The notes under the pieces: model-generated
The model's database searches: none
Seen by the model: the letters and a program-made list of their open reading frames with translations, nothing else
What the model was told of the DNA's origin: nothing
DNA from: Rhizobium sp. AC27/96
GTDB taxonomy: Bacteria; Pseudomonadota; Alphaproteobacteria; Rhizobiales; Rhizobiaceae
Assembly: GCF_001692325.1 (NCBI RefSeq)
Contig: NZ_LXKN01000001.1
Coordinates: forward strand, 744,001-808,000
Length of the DNA stretch: 64,000 nucleotides
Direction: 5' to 3'
Part shown: piece by piece, positions 30,937 through 37,463 of the stretch
Position numbering within the stretch: position 1 is the first letter of the stretch
How the letters are laid out: each line of letters begins with the position of its first letter
Position numbers and translations under genes: made by a program

Positions 30937-32049
30937 ATGGCGGAAATTCGGATCGAACAAGTTCGCAAGGCCTATGGACGCAATGAGGTCGTTCATGGTG
31001 TCGACCTGAATTTCCGATCGGGCGAGTTCGTCGTTATTCTCGGGCCTTCCGGCTGTGGCAAGTCCACGCTGCTGCGCATGATTGCCGGCCTCGAGGATAT
31101 TTCGTCCGGCGAGATCGTCATCGACGGCAAGGTCGTCAACCAGCTTGAGCCGCGCGAGCGCGGCTGCGCCATGGTCTTCCAGAACTACGCGCTCTATCCG
31201 CACATGGATGTTGCCGCCAACATGGGCTACGCGCTGAAGGTTGCCGGCGTGCCGCGCGCCGAGCGCGATCGCCGCATCAAGGAAACCGCCAAGATCGTCG
31301 GCCTGGAGGATTTCCTTGCCCGCAAGCCGGCCGAGCTTTCCGGCGGCCAGCGCCAGCGTGTCGCCATGGGTCGCGCCATCATCCGCGAACCGAAGGTCTT
31401 CCTCTTCGACGAACCGCTATCCAACCTCGATGCCAAGCTGCGCGTACAGATGCGCGTCGAGATCCGCCGCCTGCACAAGCGCCTGTCGGCCACCTCGGTT
31501 TTCGTGACCCACGACCAGGTCGAAGCAATGACGCTCGCCGACAAGCTCGTCGTCATGTACAAGGGCAATGTCGAGCAGGTCGGCACTCCCCTTGAAATCT
31601 ACAACACACCGCGCACCCGTTTCGTCGGCTCCTTTATCGGCTCGCCCGCCATGAATTTCCTGGAAGGCTCATTCTCGGCCAACGGCGAGCAGTTCAACTT
31701 CGATGGCCTGCCGATCGGCATTGATGCCAATATCGGCAAGCGTCACGCCGGCCAGCCGGTTGCCCTCGGCATCCGTCCGGAACATGCTCGTCTCGTGCCG
31801 GCAGGCACGCCCGGCGCCATTCCGGCTACCGTTGATTTCGTCGAAGAACTCGGCGCCGGCCGTGTCATCCATTGCGATATCAACGGATCGAGCTTCGCCG
31901 TCGCTGTATCGGACCACACGACCGGCCAGACCGGCCAGTCCGTTGGTCTCGACCTGCCGCAGCAGCACACGCACCTCTTCGCCCAGGATACCGGCCTGCG
32001 GCTCGACGCCGTTGCCTCCGTCACGCCGCTTAAGGTGATGGCGCACTAA
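30937..32049 (+). CDS. ugpC: ABC transporter ATP-binding protein, sn-glycerol-3-phosphate type
   Basis: 370 residues of the MalK/UgpC group. Walker [10 protein letters not shown] (about 37-45), signature [14 protein letters not shown], Walker [16 protein letters not shown], and a C-terminal OB-like TOBE domain from about 240 ([10 protein letters not shown]). The protein energises import together with two permeases. The likely partners UgpBAE are encoded 2.2 kb away on the other strand, past an esterase gene. It could also serve other sugar permeases, as MsmK-like ATPases do. A strong terminator follows. Confidence 0.88.
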
Positions 32050-32076: not shown

Positions 32077-32109
32077 GCCCGGAAGTCTCTAAGACTTCCG
32101 GGCTTTTTT
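32077..32109 (+). terminator. Intrinsic terminator of ugpC
   Basis: Perfect 12-bp stem GCCCGGAAGTCT / AGACTTCCGGGC with loop CTA and six T residues, 28 bp past the stop. Confidence 0.92.
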
Positions 32110-32163: not shown

Positions 32164-33780
32164 TCATTTGGCGCATTCGAAATTCTCCGCCTTGTTCGGA
32201 TCGGTCGCGCCGGCCTTATATTTCGGATAAGAGGGGTATTCGCACATGGGCCGCGTGCGGCCGGCGCCGTCATTGCCGGCGTCGCCGACGATCAGATTTT
32301 CAGGGGCTTTTCCTTTTTCCACCCAATTCTCCAATGCGCTCAGCGGATCCCAGGCGGCGATGAACTTGCCGCTGCCATGGCCGAAGCCGGGCACGAGATA
32401 GAAGCGCATGAAGCCGCGGACATTCTCCGCCCCCATCGTTTTGACCACGCGCTCATAATAGGAAACCGTATTGTAGGGCGAGATCGCGAAATCGATGGTG
32501 CCGTGCATCAGCAACATCTTGCCGCCGCGCTTTTCGAATGCGGACAGGTCGGCGCTGTTCGCATCGATCAGCTTGGAAACCTCCGCGATACGCTTTGCAT
32601 ATTTCGGGGGATCGAAAGTCATGGTGTCGAACTTCGGATCGCGCACGATCGCGTAGCGGATCAATGGGTCCGCAAGGACGGCAAGACCGAAATTGGCAAC
32701 GGGAGTTGGCGGATTTGTCAGCTCCGGCGACAGGCCGAAACCCCAGAGACCATAGAGATCGCCACCTTGAAAGATCGGCCAGCGTGGGAAGCCTTCGACA
32801 CCGTCCTGCAGCTTGACCGGAGACTTGTAGGGCGTGTTGATCGTCTTCAGCACTGCGATCTGGGTGTCTGAAAGGCATGTATCGCCTTCATCCTTTCCGC
32901 TTGCGCAGCGAAGGTCCTCGATCTTGAAGGTCGCGTCGCAGGCCGCCGTATTCGAGATGAGACCGTCTTCAACGCCGTCGAGCTTGTCGCACGCTTTGGT
33001 GACGGCAGAATTGAGCAGTTCGACCTTGGCGGGGCTTAGATAGCCGCCGTTTCGATAGAAAGCCTTCGCGAGATGATTGCCGGAAAGCTGCAAGGCAGAG
33101 AAGGGGTTTGCCGGATGAGTGACGATGGCGCCATCGTAATCGGCCGGCCAGCGCTGGATCGCGATCAGGGATTCGTGTCCGCCCTGCGAATTGCCTTGAA
33201 TATAGGTCTTCTGCTGCTTCCTGCCGTAATAGTCGGAGACCACGGCGATTGCGGCATCGTGGGTCTTCTTGATTTGCAGGCCGCCGAAATTGGCCAGGGC
33301 CTCATTGTTCAGGAGGAATTTGCCGTCGAGCACCGATGGCGACTGGTGGCCGCTATCGCTGCCGAAGGTGACATAGCCGCGCTGCAGAGGCGTCTGGACG
33401 GCATCTGAGCCAAAGGAAACGTTCTTGACCGCCTCGATCAGGGTTCCGTCATAGCCACCGCCACCATACTGGATGATCTTGTCGTTCCAGGTCAGCGGCA
33501 GATTGACTTGGAAATTGATGTTCGGCGCCTTGGGATCGATGGGCTCGATCCCGCCCAGCACCTTGCAGAAGCCGCCGCCAGCGGCTTGGTCGCCCTTGAG
33601 AAGATCGGCGGAATAGACGACGGCGCGACGAGCCGGCTCGCCGATCTCGTCCGGGGAAATCAGCATCCCGCGCAGAGCCATGCAATGGGCTTCTTCGGGT
33701 GTTGGCATGTCTTGAGCGGCGCTGACACCCGCGCTCAGGAAAACTACCGCATTCGCCAAGATGAATTGCCAAAGTCTCAT
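32164..33780 (-). CDS. Tannase/feruloyl esterase family protein, secreted
   Basis: 538 residues from the ATG at 33780 (GGAGGAGG upstream). A signal peptide spans about residues 1-22. The alpha/beta-hydrolase core with YIQGNSQGGHESL (nucleophile S198), MHGTIDFAISP (Asp about 430) and YLVPGFGHGSG (His about 468) matches the tannase/FaeB family of polyphenol esterases. In the family's CS-D-HC motif the cysteines next to Ser and His form a disulfide; here both are replaced (N197 and G469). Other cysteines remain (for example in TKACDKLD and AACDATF, the lid/calcium-loop region). A plant phenolic ester substrate is inferred. Confidence 0.85.
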   Translation of the reverse strand: MRLWQFILANAVVFLSAGVSAAQDMPTPEEAHCMALRGMLISPDEIGEPARRAVVYSADLLKGDQAAGGGFCKVLGGIEPIDPKAPNINFQVNLPLTWNDKIIQYGGGGYDGTLIEAVKNVSFGSDAVQTPLQRGYVTFGSDSGHQSPSVLDGKFLLNNEALANFGGLQIKKTHDAAIAVVSDYYGRKQQKTYIQGNSQGGHESLIAIQRWPADYDGAIVTHPANPFSALQLSGNHLAKAFYRNGGYLSPAKVELLNSAVTKACDKLDGVEDGLISNTAACDATFKIEDLRCASGKDEGDTCLSDTQIAVLKTINTPYKSPVKLQDGVEGFPRWPIFQGGDLYGLWGFGLSPELTNPPTPVANFGLAVLADPLIRYAIVRDPKFDTMTFDPPKYAKRIAEVSKLIDANSADLSAFEKRGGKMLLMHGTIDFAISPYNTVSYYERVVKTMGAENVRGFMRFYLVPGFGHGSGKFIAAWDPLSALENWVEKGKAPENLIVGDAGNDGAGRTRPMCEYPSYPKYKAGATDPNKAENFECAK

Positions 33781-34205: not shown

Positions 34206-35120
34206 TCACTTTTCGGTGGCGATCAGGCCGCGAACGAACCAGCGCTGCATCAGGACAACGACGGTGAGCGGCGGCAGCATCACGATCAGCGTGCCGGCCA
34301 TGGCGATATGCCATTCAGGAAGGCCGCCGATATTCGGAATGAGCTGCTTGAGTTCGGTCACCGCAGTCATATGCGCTGGGTCGGTGGTGACGAGCAGCGG
34401 CCAGAGATACTGGTTCCAGGCCCAGAGGAACATGATGGTGCCGAGGGCTGCCATGTTGGTGCGCGACAGTGGCAGCAGGATATCGATGAAGAAACGCAGC
34501 GATCCCGCGCCATCCATGCGCGCGGCCTCGGTCAGCTCGTCCGGTATTGTCAGGAAGAACTGACGATAGAGGAACGTACCCGTCGCCGTCGCGACCAATG
34601 GCAGGATCAGGCCGATCGAGGAGTTGAGCAGCCCAAGGTTCAGCGCGACTTCAACGCCTGTAACCTTCTGGATGAGCCAGCTGATGCCGGTAATGTCGAG
34701 AATCCCCTGATAGGGAGACAGGACGTTCGCTGCGACCGCATAGGTTGGCACGATGCGTACTTCGAGTGGCAGCATCAGCGTCACGAAGATCAGCCAGAAG
34801 ATGAAGTGGCGGCCAGGATAGCGGAAGTAGACCAGCGAAAAGGCTGTTATCGCCGAAATCAGCACTTTTCCCACCGCAACGCCGGTGGCGAAGATCAGGC
34901 TGTTCAGCAGCTTTGGACCAAGATTGGCGGTCGTCCAAGCTGTCTGCAGATTGACCCAGAAATCCGAGCCGGGGATCAGCGACATCGGCACCTTGTTGAC
35001 GTCGGCCAGATTATGGGATGCGGCGATGGCGACGATTGTCAAAGGTCCCACCGCCACCACGAAACCGATGAACAGGATCAGATGGGTGAAGAAATTCAGT
35101 ATTGGTGTGCGCTCGACCAT
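34206..35120 (-). CDS. ugpE: sn-glycerol-3-phosphate ABC transporter permease
   Basis: 304 residues with six predicted membrane helices, starting at about residues 12-32 (FFTHLILFIGFVVAVGPLTI). The cytoplasmic EAA loop that contacts the ATPase reads ELTEAARMDGAGSLRFFIDI at about 212-231. The MalG/UgpE family partner of UgpA. Slightly longer than E. coli UgpE (281). The start lies seven bases after the ugpA stop, so translation is probably coupled. Confidence 0.92.
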   Translation of the reverse strand: MVERTPILNFFTHLILFIGFVVAVGPLTIVAIAASHNLADVNKVPMSLIPGSDFWVNLQTAWTTANLGPKLLNSLIFATGVAVGKVLISAITAFSLVYFRYPGRHFIFWLIFVTLMLPLEVRIVPTYAVAANVLSPYQGILDITGISWLIQKVTGVEVALNLGLLNSSIGLILPLVATATGTFLYRQFFLTIPDELTEAARMDGAGSLRFFIDILLPLSRTNMAALGTIMFLWAWNQYLWPLLVTTDPAHMTAVTELKQLIPNIGGLPEWHIAMAGTLIVMLPPLTVVVLMQRWFVRGLIATEK

Positions 35121-35127
35121 GGCAGCC

Positions 35128-36012
35128 TCAACGGTAATGAACGCGCCGCTCGATGAAGCGGAACTGGAAGATGGTAAGCACGATGATCAGCAGCATCAGG
35201 ATGATGCTCTGTGCCGCCGCACCGGAAAAGTCGAGGCCTTTGAAGCCGTCGGAATAGATCTTGTAGACCATGAGGTTAGTCGAGTTGTGTGGCCCGCCTG
35301 ACGTCATGATGTCGACGATGCCGAAGGAATCCTGGAAGCTTTCGGTGATGTTGATGACCAGCAGGAAGAAGATCGTCGGCGTGATCAACGGGAACTGGAT
35401 ATCCCAGAACCGCCGGAGCACGCTGGAGCCATCCATGGCGGCCGCTTCGATCAGCGAGCGCGGGATGCCCTGGAAAGCAGCCAGGAAGAAGATGAAGCTA
35501 TAGCCGATATATTTCCACGAGAAGGCGGCGATGATGCAGGCCATGGCCGCGTTGCCGTCAAGGCCCGGATCCCAAATGCCCGGCCACCACTGATTGACCA
35601 CGGCGATGAGGCCGGCTTCCGGCGCCAGGATGAAGCGGAAGGCCATTGCCGAGGCGGGGGCCGCGATGCCATAGGGCCAGATCAGCACGACGCGGTAGAG
35701 TTTCGAGCCGCGCAGCTGTCGATCGGTCAGGGCTGCGAGTATAAGGCCGCCCCCCATGGCAATGGCAGTGCTGATAGCGGCGAAAATGATGCTGATCGTG
35801 ACCGAGTTCCAGTAATCGGAACTGGCGAGGATGGCTTTGAAATTGTCGAGCCCGACCCAGATGTTGCCGCCGCCCCAGGGCTGCTGCAGCGTCAACGACC
35901 AGAAGACCGCTTGACCGGCCGGCCAATAGAAAAAAGTGAAGATGAGGAGCAACTGCGGCACTGCGAACAGGATGCCGACACTCCATTTGTTGAAAGTTAT
36001 GCGCTTTTCCAT
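35128..36012 (-). CDS. ugpA: sn-glycerol-3-phosphate ABC transporter permease
   Basis: 294 residues with six predicted membrane helices; the first (about 12-32) follows MEKRITFNKW. The EAA loop is SLIEAAAMDGSSVLRRFWDI. MalF/UgpA family; the length matches E. coli UgpA (295). It is preceded by a strong hairpin in the gap after ugpB and followed directly by ugpE. Confidence 0.93.
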   Translation of the reverse strand: MEKRITFNKWSVGILFAVPQLLLIFTFFYWPAGQAVFWSLTLQQPWGGGNIWVGLDNFKAILASSDYWNSVTISIIFAAISTAIAMGGGLILAALTDRQLRGSKLYRVVLIWPYGIAAPASAMAFRFILAPEAGLIAVVNQWWPGIWDPGLDGNAAMACIIAAFSWKYIGYSFIFFLAAFQGIPRSLIEAAAMDGSSVLRRFWDIQFPLITPTIFFLLVINITESFQDSFGIVDIMTSGGPHNSTNLMVYKIYSDGFKGLDFSGAAAQSIILMLLIIVLTIFQFRFIERRVHYR

Positions 36013-36061
36013 GGTCTCTTCCGGCTTGCGATCCCGATGCCATTCTTGCTCTCATAACGAA

Positions 36062-36087
36062 CGTCCGCCGGGAAACCCCGGCGGACG
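36062..36087 (-). promoter_or_regulatory. Stable hairpin between ugpB and ugpA
   Basis: Perfect 11-bp arms CGTCCGCCGGG / CCCGGCGGACG with a 4-nt loop, 24 bp past the ugpB stop, without a T run. Hairpins at this place in binding-protein operons usually protect the upstream mRNA so that the binding protein is made in excess of the permeases. Confidence 0.75.
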
Positions 36088-36110
36088 CTGCCTGTCATGA
36101 GTTTTGCTGC

Positions 36111-37463
36111 TTACGGCAGCTGCTTGCCCTTGTAGGTCGCTTCGAAGCGATCGAGAACGGTGTCGCCATTCTTGACGAGATTGTCGATGCCTTCCTGGAC
36201 GCTGACCTTGTTGGCGAAAATGGCCTGCATCTGGTTGCCGAATTCAGCGCGGATCTGCGTGAAGTTGCCGAGGCGAACGCCACGGGTGATCGGGGTCGGC
36301 TCGGAAGCGGTCAAGCTGGCGATTGCGATTTCACGGCCCTTATAGGGAGCCTTGTCGTAGAAGCCGGAGGACTTCATGAAGTTGAAGCCAGCCTTGGTGA
36401 CCGGAATATAGCCGGTGTTGGTCGACCAGAAGAGAGCTGTTTCTGGCTTGGCGATGAAGGCGAGGAACGCGGCAGCGCCCTTGTATTCATCAGCCGACTT
36501 GCCGGAGAGAACCCAGAGCGATGCGCCGCCGACGAGCGAATTCTTGCGCTCGGTGCCGGCATAGACCGGAAGTTCGGCAACATCCCAGTTCAGGCCGGCC
36601 TTCTGGGTCTTGGTGATCGAGCCGTGATCGCCGACCGAGGTGAGGATCATCTGGCAATCGCCCGAAGCGAAGGCCTGAACCATATCCTGGCCAAGATCCT
36701 TGGACTTGATCTTGATGAGGCCCTGGTCGTACCAGCTCTTGAGGTCGGTAACGTACTTGACGAACTTGGTCTTGTTGACGGTCAGGCGAGCGTCGAGGCC
36801 GTCATAACCGTTGTTCTTCGTGGCAACCGGCTGGTCGTGGATGGCAGAGAACTGCTCCATCAGCTGCCAGCTTTCGTTGCCGGAGATGTTGATGGCCATC
36901 GGGCAATCATAGCCAGCGCCCTTCAGCGCCTTCATTTCGGCAGCGGCATCTTCCCAGGTCTTCGGAGCTTCGGTCTTGCCGATCTTGGCAAAAGCGTCCT
37001 TGTTCCAATAGAGCAGGGCGGTCGAGGAGTTGAACGGGAAGGACAGCAGCTCGCCCTTGGACGTTGCGTAATAGCGGGCGATACCCGGGAAATAGTCGTT
37101 CCAGTCGACCTTGTAGCCGTTTTCAGCCATCAGCTTGGTGACGGAGTGATAGGCGCCCGAAAGCATCATGGTCGCGGTGCCGACGTCATAGACCTGAACG
37201 ATCGTCGGCTGCTTGCCGGCGCGGAAGGCGGCAATGGTGTTCTGCAGAGCGGCGTCGTAGCTGCCCTGGCTGACGCAGGAGACTTCATAGTCCTTCTGCG
37301 AGTCGTTGAAGTTCTTGCAGAGCGTCTGAACGACGCGTTCCAGGTCGCCCGACAGGCCGAACCAGAAATCGAACTTGGTCGGAGCGGCAGCAGCAGGCAG
37401 GGCCAGCGCTAAGCTCATGACGCCGGCGGCGGCAGCCGAAATGCAGTTTTTAAGTTTCGACAT
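36111..37463 (-). CDS. ugpB: sn-glycerol-3-phosphate ABC transporter substrate-binding protein
   Basis: 450 residues with a signal peptide of about 27 residues ending ALPAAAA. The mature start PTKFDFWFGLSGDLERVVQT and the later YNGLDARLTVNK-like and WALSSVGDHGS-like regions fit the UgpB family of type 1 binding proteins (seen here as NNGYDGLDARLTVNK and MILTSVGDHGSI). It captures glycerol-3-phosphate or its diesters in the periplasm. A candidate Pho box lies 66-85 bp upstream, matching known PhoB control of ugp. Confidence 0.93.
   Translation of the reverse strand: MSKLKNCISAAAAGVMSLALALPAAAAPTKFDFWFGLSGDLERVVQTLCKNFNDSQKDYEVSCVSQGSYDAALQNTIAAFRAGKQPTIVQVYDVGTATMMLSGAYHSVTKLMAENGYKVDWNDYFPGIARYYATSKGELLSFPFNSSTALLYWNKDAFAKIGKTEAPKTWEDAAAEMKALKGAGYDCPMAINISGNESWQLMEQFSAIHDQPVATKNNGYDGLDARLTVNKTKFVKYVTDLKSWYDQGLIKIKSKDLGQDMVQAFASGDCQMILTSVGDHGSITKTQKAGLNWDVAELPVYAGTERKNSLVGGASLWVLSGKSADEYKGAAAFLAFIAKPETALFWSTNTGYIPVTKAGFNFMKSSGFYDKAPYKGREIAIASLTASEPTPITRGVRLGNFTQIRAEFGNQMQAIFANKVSVQEGIDNLVKNGDTVLDRFEATYKGKQLP

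Follow-up and report, generated by a model that had tools for sequence, protein, structure and literature searches.

A putative exported esterase of Rhizobium in a widespread, disulfide-free branch of the tannase family

We identified, in a 64,000-nucleotide stretch of the Rhizobium sp. AC27/96 genome (the window), a protein of the tannase/feruloyl esterase family (PF07519) that has neither cysteine of the family's active-site disulfide, and which is most likely an active, exported esterase from a widespread disulfide-free branch of that family. The CS-D-HC motif, in which these cysteines adjoin the catalytic serine and histidine, reportedly goes back to Suzuki et al. 2014. Translation of the minus-strand gene (32164-33780) gave GNSQGG at N197-S198, HGTID at D430, and GFGHGSG at H468-G469, and with the alignment described below confirmed the original prediction's reading of GNSQGG and FGHGSG without the family cysteines. 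The features of the gene are as follows.

32164..33780, minus strand: PF07519 (tannase/feruloyl esterase) protein of 538 aa, with the triad S198-D430-H468, and N197 and G469 at the family's active-site cysteine positions
33715..33780, minus strand: putative N-terminal signal sequence, ~residues 1-22 of the esterase, judged by eye
33187..33192, minus strand: codons of N197-S198 (Cys-Ser in the family), computed from residue numbers
32491..32493, minus strand: codon of the catalytic D430, computed from the residue number
32374..32379, minus strand: codons of H468-G469 (His-Cys in the family), computed from residue numbers

The protein matched the PF07519 Tannase profile throughout (profile positions 1-490 of 490; E 4.5e-126; 422 bits against a gathering cut-off of 29.8), passing the Pfam cut-off without needing the active-site disulfide, and an NCBIfam search of the same protein assigned no family. 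Its nearest solved sequence is Ideonella sakaiensis MHETase (6qg9, 6qga; E 5.7e-50), and alignment of the two places N197/S198, D430, and H468/G469 at MHETase C224/S225, D492, and H528/C529. The Ser, Asp, and His are retained, and N197 and G469 stand where MHETase has its C224-C529 pair, leaving the esterase with no CS-D-HC disulfide; the coordinated replacement of both cysteines around an intact triad, as originally proposed, is borne out in this alignment. Because the same NS/HG residues occur in six orthologues (L125, L126, L128, L129, L130, and L004, with L127 not counted separately as its core is identical to that of L004), we rejected sequencing error as their source. TAL effector chains also matched weakly in a profile search (E 7e-6 to 9e-4), which was taken as chance. 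The genome's other PF07519 match (L002, G000:C1:453545-454000; 32 bits, within a 701-residue frame) was rejected as a second tannase, since by eye it looks to be of prolyl-oligopeptidase type.

Apart from the active-site pair, the esterase keeps the columns of the family's other four disulfides. Its eight cysteines (33, 72, 264, 281, 292, 302, 513, and 536) occupy columns in which 38-53 of 54 cysteine-pair members also have cysteine. Seven of the eight align with MHETase C92, C303, C320, C340, C348, C577, and C599; the first precedes the part of MHETase used in the alignment, so that seven disulfide columns are comparable, and all seven are shared. We looked for compensating cysteines and for loss of triad residues and found neither: by alignment column, none of the eight compensates at the clamp, because all stand in columns of the other disulfides. 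The esterase residues D265, D268, and D272 fall at the columns of MHETase D304, D307, and D311, which we take to be calcium-binding. A Sec-type signal sequence was read by eye over the first ~22 residues and, together with the retained disulfide columns, argues against the "intracellular-like" variant suggested earlier.

An AlphaFold2 model built on 30 aligned relatives reached a mean pLDDT of 92.0 and a pTM of 0.90, with ten-residue blocks over 191-210 and 461-480 at pLDDT 91-96. In VIA-align 2, the model matched Aspergillus oryzae FaeB (3wmt_B; Z 37.4, rmsd 2.5, 461 residues), Fusarium oxysporum FaeC (6fat_A; Z 36.9, rmsd 2.2, 458 residues), and MHETase (6qga_A; Z 36.8, rmsd 2.7, 481 residues), these three enzymes giving Z 36-37 over 455-483 residues, as well as A. 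niger tannase (7k4o_A; Z 29.1). The next fold after the PF07519 chains stood at Z 18, with ~245 residues aligned at ~12% identity. Given these Z scores to family structures, the predicted architecture is the normal one for the family, a hydrolase core with a large inserted lid. The lid fold is common to FaeB (3wmt) and FaeC (6fat, 8bhh), which align with the model at Z 36.7-37.4 and rmsd 2.2-2.5 over 455-461 residues and share 24-26% identity with the window esterase. FaeB has a Ser-Asp-His triad, as does the window esterase, and a Cys-Cys clamp where the esterase has Asn and Gly (PMC6461665). Among the solved family entries matched (MHETase, fungal feruloyl/carboxylic esterases, and A. niger tannase), no structure of a disulfide-free member was found, the cysteine pair having been read in sequence for MHETase only.

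The absence of the pair is common in the family and is all-or-none. Of 158 distinct full-length PF07519 proteins, 64 have both cysteines, 94 have neither, and none has only one (Fisher p 7e-46, with relatedness ignored); among ten further fully readable proteins, weaker matches or ones skipped at first, seven have both and three neither, again with no single-cysteine intermediate. The two positions thus behave as one unit, as a disulfide would predict. For the frequency of the pair we use the order and phylum surveys alone, in which 60 of 109 proteins have both cysteines and 49 neither, with the window's own order over-represented and with one of the 49 (L004) coming from a genome-sample search with the esterase protein. 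In these surveys, the PF07519 profile matched at E 0.001 or lower in 56 of the 397 order genomes. It also matched in 51 of 398 genomes of the phylum (a set that overlaps the order set), in four of 249 genomes from the Bacillus timonensis phylum (two over the cut-off), and in 20 of 246 from that of Actinocorallia. Five of these last were stronger than E 1e-90 and the others were short, at E 1e-8 to 1e-15; some weak matches within the Rhizobium family were short pieces of other proteins. To the surveys were added 33 loci from a scan of named genomes, and nine plasmid records. Of the counted rows, 31 from the named-genome scan and nine from the plasmid search bias the total towards the disulfide-free state, because they were found with queries made from the window protein itself or from close relatives. 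Five of 173 open frames, all of them pieces of L087, L089, or L090, were dropped for having fewer than 400 aligned columns, and the 168 rows kept became 158, including the window protein, once identical cores were counted once.

Several broken or partial genes show one side of the active site. L240, L241, and L242 show the His side (HC), the broken gene L090 shows the Ser side as GFSTGG, and the broken frames L087 and L089 carry GCS and HC on separate pieces. A 197-residue frame, L243, has HC with GKSRDG at the Ser-side columns and was taken as a misplaced fragment and left uncounted. In six genomes (G099, G288, G091, G411, G286, and G716), a stop codon falls inside the matched PF07519 stretch. 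A bin of Fredinandcohnia onubensis (L147) has two PF07519 genes on the same strand ~2.4 kb apart, both GS/HG. The divergent L085, L086, L088, L236, L237, and L090, whose nucleophile motif is GHSQGG or GFSTGG without a cysteine, are possibly a separate subfamily.

Palm et al. describe the disulfide as typical of the family in ESTHER, with ">80%" conservation (PMC6461665), and Knott et al., from 6,671 aligned family sequences, describe the ten MHETase cysteine positions as highly conserved (PMC7568301). Given the figure of ">80%", members without the disulfide are implicitly known, and its absence is not itself new. The tannase of Lactobacillus plantarum (4J0K, ESTHER block H) is likewise described as a serine hydrolase without the disulfide, with a very different sequence and lid fold (PMC6461665). 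We treat the CS-D-HC disulfide as a hallmark in the literature and not as defining PF07519 membership, because 94 of the 158 family proteins have neither cysteine. The disulfide-free clade described below and the all-or-none pattern seem undescribed so far: we recognised no description of such a PF07519 clade in the open-licence literature, mostly in the form of titles and the starts of abstracts.

To place the window protein, 159 sequences, MHETase among them, were reduced at a 70% identity cut to 105 representatives, from which a tree was computed after the motif columns had been taken out; it is of a quick kind, unrooted, with SH-aLRT support only. The window protein (P0001) falls within a disulfide-free clade of 42 rows (99, starred), and within a 37-row subset of it (99, starred), the nearest cysteine-pair row to the clade being L104. 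Members of the clade come from Pseudomonadota, Bacillota, Actinomycetota, and an Acidobacteria bin. A search with the clade alignment found disulfide-free rows from Rhodobacteraceae and Caulobacteraceae, from Rhizobium, Rahnella, Bacillus, Clostridium, and Actinocorallia, and from one bin each of Burkholderiales and Acidobacteria. Relatives such as those of Limimaricola (L131), Rahnella (L138), Microvirga (L116), Agrobacterium fabrum C58 pAt (L119), Bacillus timonensis (L149), and Clostridium beijerinckii (L154) have no cysteine pair, keep Ser, Asp, and His, share 39-57% identity with the window esterase, and fall, themselves or through their 70%-identity representatives, in its clade. A second disulfide-free clade of seven rows (98, starred) is nested among cysteine-pair rows (98 and 99, both starred), within a wider group that holds MHETase, and the pair is also missing in two isolated rows, L166 and L085, the latter on a long branch. 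The state of the pair needs at least four changes on this tree, and starred branches force all four. A single origin of the 49 rows in the two main clades was rejected (p-AU 3.2e-99), the tested group having been named after seeing the quick tree and the stray rows L085 and L166 excluded.

Within the 42-row clade, the residues at the two cysteine positions vary (G/S/N/A/T and G/A/V/Y/S/N), and the Ser, Asp, and His are kept in every row. Cysteine is found at each of the other disulfide columns in 38-41 of the 42 rows, 38 rows have no extra cysteine outside those columns (counted from the first disulfide column on), and the three calcium-site aspartates are present in all 42. Comparison with 54 cysteine-pair rows brought out columns that go with the missing pair. 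N164 is present in 42 of 42 clade rows, where 49 of the 54 cysteine-pair rows have Asp; D175 is likewise in all 42, K171, K172, E160, and G107 are each in 41, and P86 is in 40. The clade mostly lacks the usual Trp at two further columns. At the column of MHETase residue 263, Trp is present in 41 of 54 cysteine-pair rows and Arg in 24 of 42 clade rows, and at that of residue 394, Trp is present in 42 of 54 cysteine-pair rows versus four of 42 clade rows. These signature columns are candidates for supporting a clamp-free active site, though some may mark ancestry.

Three double variants of MHETase without the clamp ended in inclusion bodies or were not expressed, according to Knott et al. (PMC7568301), which argues that a clamp-free fold needs other support. 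We tentatively hypothesize that the 42-row clade is part of a large, old branch of PF07519 in which means other than the disulfide may hold the triad in register, the pair switching all-or-none several times; a KKT.D stretch, N164, P86, and altered lid residues may, on the same tentative footing, be marks of the clamp-free branch. A rather unlikely rival reading is that the disulfide-free state is ancestral for the clade, with the cysteine pair gained elsewhere and nothing lost in the window's lineage. Most alpha/beta-hydrolases, to our knowledge, have no such cysteine pair. PETase, for example, has Trp/Ser at the clamp positions (PMC7568301). For the large clade, gain and loss are not separable from an unrooted tree, and the counts cannot separate them either; the nested seven-row clade nevertheless suggests that loss does happen, and a midpoint root, used for drawing only, puts the window's clade inside cysteine-pair rows. 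Of the original claim that the cysteines were "lost", the absence of the pair stands, while the loss does not follow, the state being common to the whole clade on an unrooted tree.

The esterase gene lies between genes for a glycerol-3-phosphate-type importer and not in an aromatic pathway.

34206..37463, minus strand: ugpB-ugpA-ugpE-like ABC importer genes on the upstream flank, with UgpE over the NCBIfam cut-off and UgpA and UgpB below it
30937..32049, plus strand: ugpC-like ABC ATPase gene, convergent, on the other flank, over the NCBIfam cut-off
32077..32103, plus strand: strong terminator-like hairpin of 12 pairs with a T-run in the gap between ugpC and the esterase gene, by consensus match only

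A ugpE at least 77% identical to that of the window was found in 20 of 60 sampled genomes of the genus (L196-L215), in 18 of which ugpBAE is followed directly by a convergent ugpC; in the other two, which are G019 and the genome of the window, ugpE is adjoined by the esterase gene. The best named matches to the esterase, at 88-91% identity, are from Rhizobium sp. ICMP 5592, R. tropici PTD1, R. multihospitium, two R. rhizogenes, and R. hainanense, which makes a Rhizobium close to R. tropici the most probable identity of the genome. In all six named loci (L125-L130, the L127 genome being G019) the gene lies between ugpE and ugpC. A protein search of 61 genomes found the esterase in its own genome and in one other of 37 in the genus, with a 32%-identity match in one genome of another family. 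The gene is therefore either a one-site insertion inherited in one species group or one lost in the others. Composition does not mark it as foreign, since at 0.586 its GC content matches the 0.584-0.587 of ugpBAE, with a GC3 (0.727) that is slightly lower (0.767-0.814 for ugpBAE, with 0.695 for a nearby photolyase gene). The gene is under purifying selection (dN/dS 0.069-0.132 in 21 pairs among seven Rhizobium genes).

We conclude with good confidence that the gene encodes an exported serine carboxylic-ester hydrolase of PF07519 from a widespread disulfide-free clade. Family membership, the triad, and export together indicate an enzyme that hydrolyses esters beyond the cytoplasm. The kept triad and purifying selection support the earlier proposal of an active enzyme as probable. 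In the mechanism that we envisage, S198 would attack the ester carbonyl, with H468 and D430 as the charge relay. The backbone amides of G109 and Q199, which align with MHETase G132 and E226, would form the oxyanion hole, and Ser and His would be kept in register by the alpha/beta-hydrolase core alone, with no covalent clamp. On weaker grounds, the substrate is probably an aromatic ester from plants, of the hydroxybenzoate or hydroxycinnamate type, which would be cleaved in the periplasm to free an acid that may then enter the beta-ketoadipate route.

The identity of the substrate is not readable from homology, because the MHETase pocket is changed in part: R411, F415, S416, and F495 of MHETase correspond to G365, L369, A370, and I433 in the esterase, in a lid whose alignment is less certain, and W397 and H488 are retained as W346 and H426. 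Lacking all four of those substrate-binding residues, the esterase gives no reason to expect MHET activity. The altered substrate range raised in the original prediction is plausible, since several lid positions differ. Tan410, a bacterial PF07519 esterase with the clamp, hydrolyses many phenolic esters (PMC7936011), which makes broad phenolic-ester activity a fair first guess by analogy. In the portions of the literature available to our search, we met no reported activity of, and no substrate assigned to, a disulfide-free PF07519 member.

That the enzyme is a tannase in the strict sense, specific for gallate esters, is suggested by the family name and by the setting of a 40%-identical disulfide-free relative in Agrobacterium vaccinii, four genes downstream of a gene for 4-oxalomesaconate tautomerase, an enzyme placed in gallate breakdown. 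We consider this unlikely: the esterase's own genome has no match to LigB, which we take to be the family of known gallate dioxygenases, and the neighbours of the relatives viewed are varied. The genome has four matches to the intradiol dioxygenase family PF00775, two of them adjacent on C32, and with PF00775 present and LigB absent, a protocatechuate-type acid is a likelier product than gallate. On this circumstantial evidence, a protocatechuate- or hydroxybenzoate-type acid could be used, and gallate could not be used by the usual dioxygenase. The neighbourhoods viewed were nine of 164 matching plasmid records, one without annotation, and their variety does not settle the substrate. Two of the nine have a sugar-type ABC importer near the esterase relative, and in three, carrying disulfide-free tannase-family genes of Rhizobium daejeonense (L118), Agrobacterium fabrum C58 pAt (L119), and A. 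vaccinii (L124), the next gene downstream, on the same strand, is one for a "serine hydrolase". In A. vaccinii, an ABC importer as well as the tautomerase gene lies upstream.

L111 (G568), from the second disulfide-free clade, has GQANGG with Ala at the catalytic Ser column and is perhaps a pseudoenzyme. This relative is what would favour regarding the window protein, too, as a pseudoenzyme or a non-hydrolytic binding protein, a highly improbable reading given that the triad is kept in 42 of 42 rows of its own clade and the gene is under purifying selection. The picture in the original prediction, that this one Rhizobium gene recently and privately lost both cysteines to give an unusual enzyme, would accord with the replacement of both positions around a kept triad, but is scarcely credible when the whole surrounding 42-row clade is without the pair and none of the 158 rows has a single cysteine.

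For this one gene, the meaning is modest: it is an uncharacterised esterase gene that Rhizobium either acquired at this position or has retained there patchily. For the family, absence of the clamp is natural variation in a widespread branch and not an oddity of one gene, and the disulfide-free proteins (49 of 109 in the order and phylum surveys) offer ready comparisons for the role of the clamp. If the hypothesis of a branch that holds its triad in another way is true, natural sequences may show a route to clamp-free tannase-family enzymes, where the engineering of MHETase failed.
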